Virus record (IMG/VR): IMGVR_UViG_3300030202_000014
Coordinates: 1 to 57,421 of that record
DNA: 57,421 nucleotides
Direction: 5' to 3' (one strand)
Source: a virus
Shown: one piece after another, positions 43,162-51,391 of the stretch
Numbering within the stretch: the first letter of the stretch is position 1
How the letters are laid out: the number at the start of each line of letters is the position of its first letter
Notes under the pieces: model-generated
Database searches by the model: none
The model's input: only the letters and a program-made list of their open reading frames with translations
Told to the model about the DNA's origin: nothing
Made by a program: the position numbers and the translations under genes

Positions 43162-44282
43162 AATGTATCACTTTCAATGTTACTCCTTACAGTCGATTGT
43201 ACACTAATGTCTCTACGTGTCAAGGCACTATTTGCACTTTCGTAAGTATGCTTGTGATATGGCTTCACAGAAGACACATGTGTATGTCCAGATACAGCCA
43301 TGATTTGTGGTAAAGGTACACCTTTGTCTATCATTTGTGTTATACCAGTTCTCCGTATGTCCATGAGCCGTAGCTCTTCAGGTAGCTTTGCTAGTCGCAT
43401 GATCTTCCGTCCAACCTTGGACAGTCTCTCCATTGCGTATGGTTTGTACACGCCCTTCACAGGCATAGGATGTGGCACTACCCAAGGCTGAAAACCAAAG
43501 TCTGCTTTCTGCTCTTTGAGCATGGCAGTCAAGTTATCTGTGATAGGAAGAAACACATCAGCCCTACGCTTACTCTGTTCTAATGTAAGCTGTTGCTTAT
43601 CCAAGTCAAGGTTCTCCCATCTTAGGTTACGCATGTCACCCAGACGCTGACACCACTCGTATGCCATGTGTATAATCAACCCGACATTCCTGTAGTCAAA
43701 GTCACTGTACGCCACGTCAAGAAACTTATTCACCTCACCATGTGACCACACCATTTTACGTTGCTTGGCAGTCTTACGCTTGATCTTACCAAACGGATTC
43801 TGCTCTGCATGTTCCATCTGTATGGCATAGTTGTACACTCTGCTTGCACAGGTAGCTGCATGGTTAGCAAAGCTAATGCCACGCTTGACCCACTCTTCAT
43901 ATGCAGCCTTGGCTATCTTGGACGTCACGTCTTTGTACTTGCGACACCCGATAGTCTGGTGTACGACTGTCAGAAAGTATCTGTAATCTACTTTAGTTGT
44001 GTCACGTAACATATTGAAATCATTGGATTGATAGTAAAAGTTGATAAGGTCAGTGACCCTGCTGCTTGGCTTCAAGCCCACAAGTTTTGCACGTTCCTCA
44101 CGCCAATCATCTATCTGTTTGTTTAACTCCTTTGCTAGTCTGCGTACCTCTTTGGTATCAGTACCCAGTTCTTCACGTTCCACCACGCCCTCATCTACAA
44201 GCATCTGTGGTGGATTAAAGCGATAAGAAGTGTCACCCGAAGATGACACTCTTAGTTGTACATAACGTGGTAGCATCTGCAT
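43158..44282 (-). CDS. int: Tyrosine recombinase / integrase
   Basis: 374 residues. Catalytic residues: R213 (CQRLGDMRNL), K238, R310 (MDIRRTG), H333 (SGH) and nucleophile Y342 (VKPYHKH), with the normal 9-residue H-Y spacing. The usual His of box II (HxxR) is replaced by M307. The N-terminal ~170 residues are SAM-like DNA-binding regions. No excisionase, repressor or clear att site is visible, so lysogeny is not established. Carries one GTCCAA element at 43409. Confidence 0.88.
   Translation of the reverse strand: MQMLPRYVQLRVSSSGDTSYRFNPPQMLVDEGVVEREELGTDTKEVRRLAKELNKQIDDWREERAKLVGLKPSSRVTDLINFYYQSNDFNMLRDTTKVDYRYFLTVVHQTIGCRKYKDVTSKIAKAAYEEWVKRGISFANHAATCASRVYNYAIQMEHAEQNPFGKIKRKTAKQRKMVWSHGEVNKFLDVAYSDFDYRNVGLIIHMAYEWCQRLGDMRNLRWENLDLDKQQLTLEQSKRRADVFLPITDNLTAMLKEQKADFGFQPWVVPHPMPVKGVYKPYAMERLSKVGRKIMRLAKLPEELRLMDIRRTGITQMIDKGVPLPQIMAVSGHTHVSSVKPYHKHTYESANSALTRRDISVQSTVRSNIESDTL
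43409..43422. repeat. GTCCAA-CC-TTGGAC element, copy 2
   Basis: 14-bp hyphenated palindrome inside the integrase gene, with flank CGTCCAACCTTGGACAG identical to copy 7 in the non-coding control region. Confidence 0.8.
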
Positions 44283-45130
44283 TAAGCAGCTTCCAATTCT
44301 AGGAACTTCTTATCAGATACCCACTTGCTGACTTCCTGTTCACGACTGAACATGCTGATAGCTTGTGTGTCGTTACCAGTGTTACGTAGGCTGAACCCAT
44401 TACGCTCATCAGCATACGATGCATAGTTGGTAAAGGCAGAGTACAACGCCCACTTGTTGTGGCCTCGTTGAGATGCCTCATGGCAATACAATTCGTACAT
44501 CTTTTCAGACTTACGCTTAGATGCAATCATGTCTTCTAGCAATGACTGTACGTTTACGTATTTGAGGTCAGTCTCAGCCCACACCTGCATCTTTGCAGTC
44601 TCTTCGTAGAAGTCACGTCTTGCACGATTTAACTCGTAGATGAAACCATCCAGTGTAAAGTTAGATGTGTTCTTCTTACGAACCTTGTCGTATTCACCAC
44701 GTATCATGCCGTTAGTGCAGAAGAAATCAATCTGTCCAAAGTACACTTGGTTGCTGCATGAACCATCAACACCATGTAATGATATGATACGATTGCCAAG
44801 CGTAGTTGTGTGCTTGTCTGTAGCAATCTCTACCTGCATGTCAGGTAATGTGATGTCTAGCATAGACCATGCACCACTTCGTGCAGTGCGCCAGTTGTAT
44901 TTGGCATTGGTCATCTCAGCAGGTGAAAGGTTTTCTGTCAGTGTGTCCATGACACCACGATAGAAGTCACCATGAGATGCACAGGTAAAACCTCTACCCA
45001 CGATACCAATGTACTCACCAGTGTTACCATTAATGACGTATTTCTTGTCATCTACTTTAGTTGGTTCAAATTCCACATCAAAGTCAAGCTTTGTTGGAAT
45101 GTCGAATGTGTTGTTAATGTCGAATGGCAT
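44282..45130 (-). CDS. DUF932 phage/plasmid protein
   Basis: 282 residues. Features of the DUF932 group (plasmid-like protein): YVINGNTGEYIGIVGRGFTC, GAWSMLDITLPD, HGVDGSCSNQVYFGQIDFFC, TNGMIRGE. Common in phages and plasmids; biochemical function unknown. Good ribosome site (AAGGAG) upstream; one-base overlap with the integrase start. Confidence 0.85.
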   Translation of the reverse strand: MPFDINNTFDIPTKLDFDVEFEPTKVDDKKYVINGNTGEYIGIVGRGFTCASHGDFYRGVMDTLTENLSPAEMTNAKYNWRTARSGAWSMLDITLPDMQVEIATDKHTTTLGNRIISLHGVDGSCSNQVYFGQIDFFCTNGMIRGEYDKVRKKNTSNFTLDGFIYELNRARRDFYEETAKMQVWAETDLKYVNVQSLLEDMIASKRKSEKMYELYCHEASQRGHNKWALYSAFTNYASYADERNGFSLRNTGNDTQAISMFSREQEVSKWVSDKKFLELEAA

Positions 45131-48803: not shown

Positions 48804-49388
48804 TTACCTCGCAATGTTGTGTTGTCTGCGCCAAGCTACCCATGTGATAGCTTGCATTTGAAAACCTTTGATGCCAACAGCTTTAGCTGCTTCAATATAA
48901 GCATTGGCAATGATACCATACTCTTTGACACCTACGTTGTTGTTCTTGAGAACCCTACGTAGTCCATCATGTATGTTCTTGGCGTGACCGTCTACAGTCA
49001 CTACGTCTAGTCCAACTATGTTGGCAAAGAAAGCTGTAGTCTTACGTCCATTGAGTTTAGCCATCAATGCTTTCCTACGTACCATACGTTGCTCAAGCAT
49101 ATCCCATGCCTTACGTTTGTTGGCAGGATAGGCAGAGACAGTTACCTCATCTATAGTGCAACCTTTGACAAAGGCTTCTACCAGTATGTGTGCAGCCTTG
49201 ACATTGACAGACCAACCAAGGTTGGGTGACAGTGCAGCAATGACACCAACAACAGTGTTTACACTGATACCAAATTCTTTGGCAATCTTGTTAGCATCAC
49301 GCTTGGCAAGCTTGTACCACTTGATGCCATGCGTCACTTCGTCAGGTGTGGCATTGTGGTATGTATTGAGAATGTTTTGTACAGTCAT
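48804..49388 (-). CDS. Phage protein resembling an HhH DNA glycosylase
   Basis: 194 residues. Helical. FGISVNTVVGVIAALSPNLG, then LNGRKTTAFFANIVGL and DVVTVDGHAKNIHDGLRR. The last parts recall the GxGRKTA...VDxH layout of helix-hairpin-helix DNA glycosylases such as endonuclease III. Known in many phages as unknown function. A base-excision role is only an inference; an Fe-S Cys cluster is absent. Confidence 0.5.
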   Translation of the reverse strand: MTVQNILNTYHNATPDEVTHGIKWYKLAKRDANKIAKEFGISVNTVVGVIAALSPNLGWSVNVKAAHILVEAFVKGCTIDEVTVSAYPANKRKAWDMLEQRMVRRKALMAKLNGRKTTAFFANIVGLDVVTVDGHAKNIHDGLRRVLKNNNVGVKEYGIIANAYIEAAKAVGIKGFQMQAITWVAWRRQHNIAR

Positions 49389-49624
49389 TATTCATCTCCC
49401 TTCGGGAATGCAGCATTCCATTCTTCTGGTGTAATACCAGAGATCAGGAACTCTCTTGCGCTATCACTCAGTTGTGGGAACGCATCTTGCACCAACGTGC
49501 CACTGGTAAGCCAGTAGTCAAGCTGCCCTGAACGCAATGGTAGCACCATGCAACTTTCCTTGCCAGTAAGCATGGATACCTTGTGTACCATTGTGAATCC
49601 TTCGGATACATGTTCATATCTCAT
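49388..49624 (-). CDS. Hypothetical protein (phage-conserved type)
   Basis: 78 residues from the ATG at 49624 with GGAGTAACC upstream; a TTG-initiated extension to 49666 is unlikely. Contains LPLRSGQLDYWLTSGTLVQD and FLISGITPEEWNAAFP, a pattern seen in other phages. Stop overlaps the next start. A promoter candidate and a GTCCAA element lie upstream. Confidence 0.6.
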   Translation of the reverse strand: MRYEHVSEGFTMVHKVSMLTGKESCMVLPLRSGQLDYWLTSGTLVQDAFPQLSDSAREFLISGITPEEWNAAFPKGDE

Positions 49625-49644
49625 TTCGGTTACTCCGTAAAAGT

Positions 49645-49658
49645 GTCCAACATTGGAC
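49645..49658. repeat. GTCCAA-CA-TTGGAC element, copy 5 (non-coding)
   Basis: Lies 21-34 bases upstream of the ATG at 49624 and downstream of the promoter candidate at 49686-49713, so it would sit in the 5' leader. Confidence 0.8.
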
Positions 49659-49685
49659 GGTTTCAATTTTGTAATGTGTATACAT

Positions 49686-49725
49686 GTTATATAACACTTT
49701 CACAATAAATCAAGTGTTATATAAC
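49686..49725 (-). promoter_or_regulatory. Leftward promoter candidate within a 14-bp inverted repeat
   Basis: GTTATATAACACTT (49686-49699) and AAGTGTTATATAAC (49712-49725) are exact reverse complements, and each contains the palindrome GTTATATAAC. On the minus strand TTGATT (49713-49708) and TATAAC (49691-49686) with a 16-base spacer form a sigma70-like promoter spanned by the repeat. This looks like an operator-controlled internal promoter for the genes from 49624 leftward. Confidence 0.55.
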
Positions 49726-49735
49726 TGTAACACTA

Positions 49736-49897
49736 TTAATGTTCCACCTCACATACGACAGTGGAATGTTGATCCAATGTCTCATTCCATTGAATGAGCA
49801 ATGAATTGCAATCCTCACGTGTGAGGTTGTGATCAATCACAAATGTACTATCTAAACCAGTTATGTTAATAACTGACAGTATCAAAGCAAATGTCAT
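49736..49897 (-). CDS. Small probably exported two-Cys protein (type C)
   Basis: 53 residues. Short hydrophobic start (MTFALILSVINITG), then NLTREDCNSLLIQW and a second Cys in TVVCEVEH. Start overlaps the preceding stop (TAATG). Nucleotide sequence is packed with inverted repeats (49781-49798, 49813-49826, 49827-49842, 49859-49874). Same layout as the genes at 40318, 45603 and 53443. Confidence 0.5.
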   Translation of the reverse strand: MTFALILSVINITGLDSTFVIDHNLTREDCNSLLIQWNETLDQHSTVVCEVEH

Positions 49898-50067
49898 TAT
49901 ATGTCCTTTACCCAGAATGTTAAGATTGCCAGTGTACCAAATGGTACAAGTGTAAACGGCAAGATGATAGGATCAAAGTTGTGAACAACTACAGCGTACA
50001 CAAAGAATGCTATAAGCATTGTCATGAATGTCCACAACAATGCGAATAAGATACGAAACAAAAACAT
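49897..50067 (-). CDS. Small two-helix membrane protein
   Basis: 56 residues with GGAGG ribosome site. Two hydrophobic stretches (ILFALLWTFMTMLIAFFVYA and ILPFTLVPFGTLAILTFWV) separated by a short polar turn make a hairpin membrane protein. One of the first genes expressed from the leftward promoter; possible early membrane takeover or exclusion role, unproven. Confidence 0.55.
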   Translation of the reverse strand: MFLFRILFALLWTFMTMLIAFFVYAVVVHNFDPIILPFTLVPFGTLAILTFWVKDI

Positions 50068-50093
50068 GGTATTACCTCCAATGTGAAGTCAGC

Positions 50094-50699
50094 TTACACT
50101 GACTTCTTTTGTGTTGCAAGATGTGACTGTAAGTCAGCAATAATGTCTTCGACATTTAAGTTGTGTTGCTGACAATGGTGCAGAATGGTATCTACCATTT
50201 TGGTACGTGACACCATGACGTTGACGTTACGTTGGACAGTAGCACCAGATTTCTTAGCCTTCGGTTCTTTCCAACCGCTATCTGATACTACTGTATCATT
50301 CTGTCCAACATTGGACGGTTCATCTGCTTTAGCAGCATCACGCATAGCCTTCTGCAAAGCAGTGAGGGATGTAAAACCCTTTTTGCTTTTAGCAATGAAG
50401 TCACGACACTCTACTTCGTTTTCAACGAACCACAACGCTTCTGATCGTCTTCTACGATCAATCACATGAACACCATGTGTTGTGAGAGTTTGTCGGGATA
50501 TTTGACCACTATCAAGTGATGATGAAGCTTTCAATTGCTGTAGCAATTTGCCAAGCCGTGTATCAAAGCCAGAGGCTTTTGTAGAAGCTGTCAGACTGTT
50601 AGTCTGTTTCCAGATACGACCAAGGGCTTTGCCCTCTTTGATCATTGCATCAATAGTTGTTCCAACTACTTTGGTTTTTGCTTTAGCTGATTTAGCCAT
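50094..50699 (-). CDS. First gene of the leftward early operon, unknown function
   Basis: 201 residues, basic, with polar low-complexity N-terminus (MAKSAKAKTKVVGTTIDAMI) and a middle HGVHVIDRRRRSEALWFVEN that may bind nucleic acid. Being promoter-proximal, it is a candidate early regulator. The 606-bp gene holds eleven perfect short hairpins and a GTCCAA element. A larger hairpin (GAAGTCA / TGACTTC, 50085-50106) overlaps its stop codon. No family recognised. Confidence 0.6.
   Translation of the reverse strand: MAKSAKAKTKVVGTTIDAMIKEGKALGRIWKQTNSLTASTKASGFDTRLGKLLQQLKASSSLDSGQISRQTLTTHGVHVIDRRRRSEALWFVENEVECRDFIAKSKKGFTSLTALQKAMRDAAKADEPSNVGQNDTVVSDSGWKEPKAKKSGATVQRNVNVMVSRTKMVDTILHHCQQHNLNVEDIIADLQSHLATQKKSV
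50303..50316. repeat. GTCCAA-CA-TTGGAC element, copy 6
   Basis: 14-bp hyphenated palindrome within the first early gene, encoding SNVG on the minus strand; flanks match copies 4 and 5 (CCGTCCAATGTTGGACA). Confidence 0.8.
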
Positions 50700-50710
50700 G
50701 TTACTATCCT

Positions 50711-50806
50711 TTACTATCTTCTGTTACATTAAAGAGAGTTTACTTATATCTCTCACCCTAAAGTGAGATATAATAAACTATCTATGTAACTATAGAAGAT
50801 AAGTAA
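50711..50806. repeat. Long two-part quasi-palindrome
   Basis: Outer arms 50711-50729 and 50784-50806: all 19 bases of the left arm pair, with 1- and 3-base bulges on the right. Inner arms 50737-50756 and 50763-50779: all 17 bases of the right arm pair, with bulges on the left. Both share the centre near 50759. It lies just upstream of the first early gene and overlaps the promoter at 50787-50815. Confidence 0.75.
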
Positions 50807-50815
50807 GTATGTCAA
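50787..50815 (-). promoter_or_regulatory. Leftward sigma70-like promoter before the early operon
   Basis: TTGACA on the minus strand at 50815-50810, 17-base spacer, TAGTTA at 50792-50787. The -10 lies in the right arm of the quasi-palindrome, and the start point would be near 50780, about 80 bases upstream of the first gene. A second perfect -35 (50895-50890) with TAGATT-like -10 lies further upstream. Confidence 0.5.
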
Positions 50816-50924
50816 GCCCTTCTTCATGTGATCCTCTGCGCCTGTCGTTTCATGCGCCACTGCAGCAATCTAAGATTGCGAAGTCCGTGTGTCAAACTCA
50901 CGTGTGTACACGAGGATTGCTAAC

Positions 50925-50938
50925 GTCCAACCTTGGAC
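50925..50938. repeat. GTCCAA-CC-TTGGAC element, copy 7 (non-coding)
   Basis: In the control region, about 30 bases upstream of the TTGACA at 50895-50890. Flank CGTCCAACCTTGGACAG is identical to copy 2 in the integrase gene. Confidence 0.8.
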
Positions 50939-51158
50939 AGTTGACAATGGACACCCTACCCTATGGGGTAGTATTAGTTTTATGCATCGGCTCTGCAACA
51001 CGTCTTTGTTTCAGTATTTTTGCTATTCATACAGTGTAAACACTGGCAACTGATTGCATAACAGTTGTTTATAGCTTGTAAGTCACTGTAAATGCTTGCA
51101 TTCTGTTTGTGTTGGTGGATTGTCACGCATATGTTGCCTTCACCTACGTGTGTATGTG

Positions 51159-51190: not shown

Positions 51191-51219
51191 GGGTGTGCGT
51201 GGGCCACACGGGGGTGGGG
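51191..51219 (+). other. G-run element with possible quadruplex potential
   Basis: GGG, 7 bases, GGG, 6 bases, GGGGG, 1 base, GGGG: this meets the common G3+N1-7 rule. It is unusual in this AT-rich genome and directly follows alternating TG/CA DNA (51140-51180), which can form left-handed helix. Confidence 0.45.
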
Positions 51220-51300
51220 CGTTAGTATGTACACAGAAATACACAGATCAGGAAAAATGAAGTGTTAACCACATTACATATATAGTGGTTTACAGTTTCT

Positions 51301-51340
51301 TGTGATCACAAAACTAGGATAACACTTACCTGTGATCACA
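51301..51340. promoter_or_regulatory. Paired palindromes TGTGATCACA, 30 bp apart
   Basis: Identical 10-bp palindromes at 51301-51310 and 51331-51340, spaced exactly 30 bp (about three helical turns), so both would face the same side of DNA. A related TTGTGAT-CA-ATCACAA lies at 49827-49842. Operator-like; the binding protein is unknown. Confidence 0.5.
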
Positions 51341-51391
51341 TAATATATATTACACTTTGTTACAATATGTGTGCTACATTACGATTAGGGG

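Follow-up and report, generated by a model that had tools for sequence, protein, structure and literature searches.

The window analyzed here is the whole of the 57,421-nucleotide IMG/VR virus record IMGVR_UViG_3300030202_000014, and our subject is a dense field of short inverted repeats, potential hairpins, that covers the first gene of its leftward early module, which encodes a protein of 201 amino acids, together with the noncoding leader of that gene and sequence downstream of it. Judged by gene content and DNA polymerase, the window is an HMO-2011-type marine podovirus. Its family A DNA polymerase is 84% identical to that of Roseobacter phage CRP-345, 77% to that of CRP-1 and 64.5% to that of Puniceispirillum phage HMO-2011, and the translation shows two CXXCXGXG-like motifs, as in the family A DNA polymerase with CXXCXGXG zinc motifs that is a feature of the HMO-2011-type group (PMC9038755). 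Terminase, portal, coat, helicase, primase and ribonucleotide reductase are common to the window and all three isolates, in gene order and structural module. The field sits at a divergent boundary, where the leftward early and replication genes meet a rightward module that runs toward lysis and packaging, and GC skew switches sign at this boundary. Such a change fits an origin of replication, or equally divergent transcription alone; an origin here is putative.

An exhaustive scan for perfect inverted repeats (arms of at least 6 bases, loops of 2–5) returned exactly 27 between positions 49,212 and 51,045, the same hairpins, at the same places, as a first-pass annotation of this DNA had listed (Table 1). 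Their density is 14.6 per kilobase (kb), versus about 1.5 in the remaining window, where the same-span comparison yields 2.7 hairpins per 1.86 kb; the background of about one per kb that the annotation had estimated was close, if somewhat low. Eleven hairpins lie in the 606-base-pair (bp) gene for the 201-amino-acid protein, again as claimed. Codon-preserving shuffles, the comparison that the annotation had itself proposed, gave 1.04 ± 1.0 hairpins in this gene (maximum 6 in 2000), and the excess stands; the comparison of density with the rest of the genome and with relatives, also its proposal, likewise set the field apart from the remaining window and found it in the relatives scanned. In 46 homologous genes we counted 380 hairpins against 52 expected from codon-preserving shuffles, while dinucleotide shuffles gave 17.7 for the 168 hairpins of the noncoding leader and 79 for the 409 of the downstream region. 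These shuffles rule out chance or composition as the cause of the field, and since cultured isolates carry it, as do numerous independent contigs, an assembly artefact is ruled out too. The annotated extent of 1.83 kb had to be revised: the hairpins are there, but the real field is wider. Density climbs steeply from about 500 bp before the gene start, is highest within the gene, at 13–15 per kb, and declines to near background over some 3 kb of downstream sequence. The rightward genes show only background density.

Table 1. Coordinates of the hairpin field, its hairpins (arm-loop-arm) and adjoining features in the window
Feature	Position	Strand	Basis or remark
Dense hairpin field (27 short inverted repeats without mismatch; arms of 6-7, loops of 2-5)	49212..51045	.	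scan
201-amino-acid first gene of leftward early module; 11 hairpins; family co-occurs with field; all-helical model	50094..50699	-	
Noncoding leader, upstream part of field	50700..51045	-	
Hairpin CCAACC-AA-GGTTGG	49212..49225	.	scan
Hairpin CAGTGT-TT-ACACTG	49253..49266	.	scan
Hairpin GGAATG-CAG-CATTCC	49405..49419	.	scan
Hairpin TCTGGT-GTAAT-ACCAGA	49425..49441	.	scan
Hairpin GTCCAA-CA-TTGGAC (dispersed element)	49645..49658	.	scan
Hairpin CTCATTC-CATT-GAATGAG	49781..49798	.	scan
Hairpin CCTCAC-GT-GTGAGG	49813..49826	.	scan
Hairpin TTGTGAT-CA-ATCACAA	49827..49842	.	scan
Hairpin CAGTTAT-GTTA-ATAACTG	49858..49875	.	scan
Hairpin TGTACCA-AA-TGGTACA	49933..49948	.	scan
Hairpin AGTTGT-GA-ACAACT	49977..49990	.	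scan
Hairpin AATGCT-ATA-AGCATT	50006..50020	.	scan
Hairpin AATGTC-TTC-GACATT	50142..50156	.	site common to 14/47 loci, 8 different arms
Hairpin AATGGTA-TC-TACCATT	50184..50199	.	site common to 16 loci
Hairpin TGATAC-TACT-GTATCA	50283..50298	.	scan
Hairpin GTCCAA-CA-TTGGAC	50303..50316	.	site common to 29 loci
Hairpin TTCGTT-TTC-AACGAA	50415..50429	.	identical in 35/47 loci
Hairpin TGATCGT-CTTCT-ACGATCA	50442..50460	.	site common to 10 loci
Hairpin CACATG-AACAC-CATGTG	50463..50479	.	scan
Hairpin AATTGCT-GT-AGCAATT	50533..50548	.	site common to 18 loci
Hairpin AAAGCC-AGA-GGCTTT	50565..50579	.	site common to 23 loci
Hairpin CAGACT-GTT-AGTCTG	50592..50606	.	helix 3 in covariation count
Hairpin TAGTTG-TTC-CAACTA	50654..50668	.	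helix 1 in covariation count
Hairpin GCAATC-TAA-GATTGC	50865..50879	.	scan
Hairpin GTCCAA-CC-TTGGAC	50925..50938	.	scan; one of 7 GTCCAA..TTGGAC copies
Hairpin CTACCC-TATG-GGGTAG	50956..50971	.	scan
Hairpin CAGTGT-AA-ACACTG, outermost of field	51032..51045	.	scan
G-quadruplex-type motif, C-rich on leftward sense strand	51191..51219	+	outer edge of field

The hairpins share dimensions rather than letters. Pooled over 47 relatives, the excess has its center at arms of 6 bp with loops of 3 nucleotides (319 observed, 14 expected) and spans loops of 2–5, of which 3 is the commonest, and arms of 5–7; few arms reach 8 or more. The 866 hairpins comprise 424 distinct sequences, and their arms are arbitrary and blind to genes and reading frames, which rules out a set of protein-binding palindromes; only GTCCAA..TTGGAC resembles a conserved site. 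The closing pairs favor C-G or T-A over the reverse orientation (C-G 65% versus G-C 6%). Among the 3-nucleotide loops of the noncoding leader, GNA is enriched 59-fold and its complement TNC 49-fold over shuffles, and within the gene the two are equally enriched under the codon null. We therefore gave up a reading in which strand-specific GNA loops would have proved a role of RNA or of single-stranded DNA. With a C-G closing pair, a GNA loop makes an unusually stable DNA minihairpin. The DNA parameters of ViennaRNA gave no loop-specific terms, and our comparison of loop stabilities was uninformative.

Two individual hairpins stand out. The 14-bp hairpin GTCCAANNTTGGAC has seven copies in the window where 0.15 would be expected, some within genes and some in the gaps separating them (36704, 43409, 47691, 48395, 49645, 50303 and 50925). 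It is also the most frequent hairpin among relatives and possibly a genuine site of protein binding, distinct from the field. With three copies in the field, it is also where the first-pass statement that all arms differ breaks down; for most of the field that statement is correct. The hairpin TTCGTTGAAAACGAA at 50415–50429, which encodes FVENE, keeps the same letters in 35 of 47 relatives even though the codons are free to vary.

A hairpin peak recurs at the homologous place in 61 relatives of the 201-amino-acid gene in viral contigs, being weak in a few (for example L035 and L060). A second search added 30 independent loci, with a median of 12.7 hairpins per kb in the gene versus 0.8 far upstream; one of them, L112, has only 1.8. 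Three isolates, HMO-2011, CRP-1 and CRP-345, carry the field, with largely different hairpin sequences. The field, a trait of one clade of HMO-2011-type phages, is absent from CRP-2, CRP-603 and CRP-207 and from the more distant CRP-3, CRP-738, CRP-212 and HTVC033P among those scanned, and CRP-235 is ambiguous. The gene follows the field closely: a profile of its protein, built without the isolates, matches HMO-2011 (E 6e-17), CRP-1 and CRP-345, which, the window aside, are all three of the isolates with the field that were tested, and found no match in any field-less isolate scanned. When contigs were picked by the neighboring gene for a 73-amino-acid protein, 47 out of 48 had both the 201-amino-acid gene and a density of 5 hairpins per kb or more, and the sole contig lacking that gene had 1.1 per kb, which is background. 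Unrelated, non-homologous sequence and genes inserted at the same place in relatives also carry hairpins, implying that genome position matters rather than one particular gene. The predicted structure of the 201-amino-acid protein is all helical. It had no match among solved structures, and its single significant match among viral models was a 205-amino-acid entry, probably HMO-2011 gp74; no relatives of the family were found in cellular genomes.

Across these relatives the letters change but the pairing persists. For three hairpins of the 201-amino-acid gene the covariation score was 0.274, versus 0.115 ± 0.010 in shuffled data (0 of 500 shuffles reached it), and helix 1 switches between A-T and T-A without one-sided intermediates, by double changes that wobble cannot bridge. 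The first-pass claim that structure, not sequence, is kept is upheld by these compensatory changes. We then considered whether the structure is read in RNA, with hairpins along the leftward early transcript protecting it from RNases or binding a phage protein; selection on a transcript should make G.U tolerated on the sense strand. The field does follow the direction of early transcription and begins near the 5' end of the transcript, GNA and purine-rich loops are in sense-strand excess within coding sequence, and some pairs, in helices 2 and 3, vary via G.U. Overall, however, G.U is not preferred over A.C anywhere: hairpins with a single G.T or A.C mismatch exceeded the null 1.88- and 1.72-fold in the gene, 1.79- and 1.70-fold in the leader and 1.91- and 1.69-fold downstream. 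At sites defined by outgroups, 392 changes ran between Watson-Crick and G.T pairs and 422 between Watson-Crick and A.C. Compensated changes showed no clear excess of transitions over the expectation calculated for independent mutation, and a comparison of the field with Rfam gave no match. Pairing is wobble-intolerant and close to strand-symmetric. Because G.T is no better tolerated than A.C, and because the leader has its loop preferences about equally on both strands, the signal is one of DNA rather than of messenger RNA, a conclusion that is well supported. The structured early transcript suggested by the first-pass annotation is not borne out, and we regard RNA-level structure as improbable; RNA may still contribute alongside the DNA-level signal, since a mild sense-strand excess of GAA loops remains.

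A DNA-level signal could still be a mutational scar without function, if the phage polymerase, near the start of replication, switched template between the arms of quasi-palindromes and so constantly renewed the field. Template switching leaves homogenized arms and inverted spacers, and published spacer inversions had arms longer than 9 bp (PMC8604942). Both marks are also found in the field. With identical arms, exact reverse-complement loops account for 7 of 20 three-base changes in 3-nucleotide loops (10.8% expected; binomial probability about 0.004) and for 9 of 12 changes in 2-nucleotide loops (32% expected; about 0.003). One such inverted loop separates two sequences of 99.8% identity and leaves the flanks untouched; in some hairpins a single arm has been converted, again between unchanged flanks. 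Arbitrary arms that disregard genes and frames would be expected as well. Since loops occur reverse-complemented, either the hairpins or template switching must act on DNA. The rates of breakage and compensation, however, do not fit template switching alone. At 95% identity or more we saw 48 differences between paired and unpaired states, where about 96 were calculated for neutral loss alone and about 190 for loss with balancing gain; at 88–95% identity, about 1,700 were seen against calculated values of about 2,750 and 5,500. If template-switch repair were fast, around half of the broken pairs should end up as compensated doubles. By our calculation this amounts to about 48 and 1,390 in the two ranges, versus the 5 and 220 seen, the latter well above chance. 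Nor are hairpins enriched for clustered substitutions (5–9%, versus about 10% of bases), and the substitutions in broken hairpins are spread over both arms rather than concentrated in one. Template switching should also lengthen arms, yet long ones are scarce; and its known cases are scattered single events, whereas here the field is localized, its arm length bounded and its pairs broken less than expected. Because of this misfit in the rates of broken and compensated pairs, selection for DNA hairpins is favored. We conclude that pairing is moderately selected and that template switching, which the first-pass annotation had listed as a possible explanation and which does occur here, adds events at hairpins that exist in the DNA; as the sole cause of the field it is unlikely, if far from negligible.

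The first-pass annotation had also raised hairpin promoters of the kind found in Escherichia phage N4, which are read by a virion RNA polymerase. There, too, short DNA hairpins occupy the early end of a podovirus, with stems of 5–7 bp and 3-nucleotide GNA loops held by a sheared G:A pair, and their extrusion in vivo depends on gyrase (PMC4496689). Many hairpins of the field, not all, fit this geometry. N4, however, has three such early promoters of conserved sequence, whereas dozens of sequence-free hairpins extend here across coding and noncoding DNA; no conserved sequence was found flanking them, and it is mainly the coding strand of the early genes that carries their GNA loops, rather than the template strand as in N4. 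The virion proteins scanned gave no match to an RNA polymerase family. One virion protein, of 1166 amino acids, looked clade-specific and was taken up as a polymerase candidate, but it is homologous to a protein of the field-less CRP-2, which leaves no candidate. Promoters of the N4 type thus agree with the field in geometry and disagree in polymerase, flanking sequence and number, and we consider them very improbable. By our scan the first kb of N4 itself (L242, positions 1–1000) contains 7 short perfect hairpins and later stretches 1–4 per kb, with a genome average of 2.1, and phage T7 has practically none; only one of the 7 in N4 is a GNA-type promoter hairpin. Other known systems share single traits with the field. 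The pervasive structure of RNA viruses is kept across coding sequence, as here, but is read in RNA and tolerates G.U, and the hairpin origins and primosome sites of single-stranded DNA are recognized by shape, but consist of one or a few hairpins. We found no published description of such a field, and the main papers on HMO-2011-type phages are silent on hairpins (PMC9038755); most subscription journals lay outside the search, and absence is not proof. Within the literature searched, the statement that no described phage system matches has held.

The field is real, conserved and unexplained by any system tested. We lean slightly toward the view that its hairpins are selected as DNA structures, that is, as minihairpins at the DNA level; the selective reading is moderately supported. 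As to function, we hypothesize that the hairpins would form upon negative supercoiling or opening of the genome's early end, at the start of replication, in early transcription or during DNA entry, by analogy with the N4 promoter hairpins. Jointly they could make an easily opened landing zone, independent of sequence and recognized by shape, that starts replication or early expression; the co-occurring all-helical protein is a possible partner there, and template switching would contribute the occasional inverted loop or converted arm. Among the options raised in the first-pass annotation, cruciform- or hairpin-prone DNA at an origin fits best, being a DNA-level, nearly strand-symmetric signal at a boundary where skew changes, with the origin itself a matter of inference. 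A role of the field in initiation, whether of replication or of early expression, is nonetheless rather doubtful. Only tentatively, and with slightly less doubt, do we propose the wider idea of a selected multi-kb field of sequence-free DNA minihairpins over the early genes, a DNA-level structural code serving initiation or an anti-host process, with the protein of the first gene recognizing hairpin shape.

Several observations weigh against selection for DNA minihairpins. In an unbiased test, with hairpin sites defined by at least two outgroups, the arms diverge only modestly less than other sites: the ratio is 0.71–0.76 at 88–95% identity and about 0.9 at 95% or more. The strong arm conservation seen in pairwise comparisons was withdrawn, since picking hairpins that are perfect in one member halves divergence by itself. 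Direct counts in the gene are biased to the sense strand, with 24 GAA loops and no TTC; codon constraints may explain this mild excess of sense-strand GNA, which is clear in the gene. We know of nothing that uses hairpins at such density, and we infer, rather than observe, both hairpin formation in the cell and the identity of the origin.

Several further features were noted. A conserved G-quadruplex-type motif borders the field (leftward sense strand, approximate consensus CCCCCCgtatGGCCCCTGCCCaCCCC); by a strict rule it is found at 31 of the 61 loci, against one such motif in 605 kb elsewhere. The field-less CRP-2, CRP-603 and CRP-207 carry this C-rich motif too, which makes it an element of the control region in its own right. 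At 51287–51346, next to the field, the window has two tandem 30-bp repeats, each with TGTGATCACA, a possible operator pair. Among 23 contigs whose ends fall less than 6 kb upstream of the 201-amino-acid gene (the set includes L002, L017, L018, L021, L022, L029, L040, L047 and L059), 15 stop inside the last 600 bp, and the stretch from 600 to 3500 bp contains no contig end. This cluster marks either a terminus of the genome or a point, at the repetitive C-rich tract, where assemblies break; comparison of the contig-end sequences gave no common terminus and does not fix the genome end. Finally, the field-bearing isolates have a 282-amino-acid DUF932 protein (44282–45130 in the window) that CRP-2, CRP-603 and CRP-207 lack, making it another candidate partner.

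The field is widespread in one dominant group of marine phages, where it constrains both synonymous and amino-acid choices. Cultured isolates that bear it (HMO-2011, CRP-1 and CRP-345) can be compared with close relatives that do not (CRP-2, CRP-603 and CRP-207); CRP-1 and CRP-2 even have a host strain, FZCC0023, in common. If selection for DNA hairpins is indeed its cause, this would be, to our knowledge, the first case in which a long stretch of double-stranded phage DNA, coding sequence included, is shaped by dense DNA hairpin pairing.

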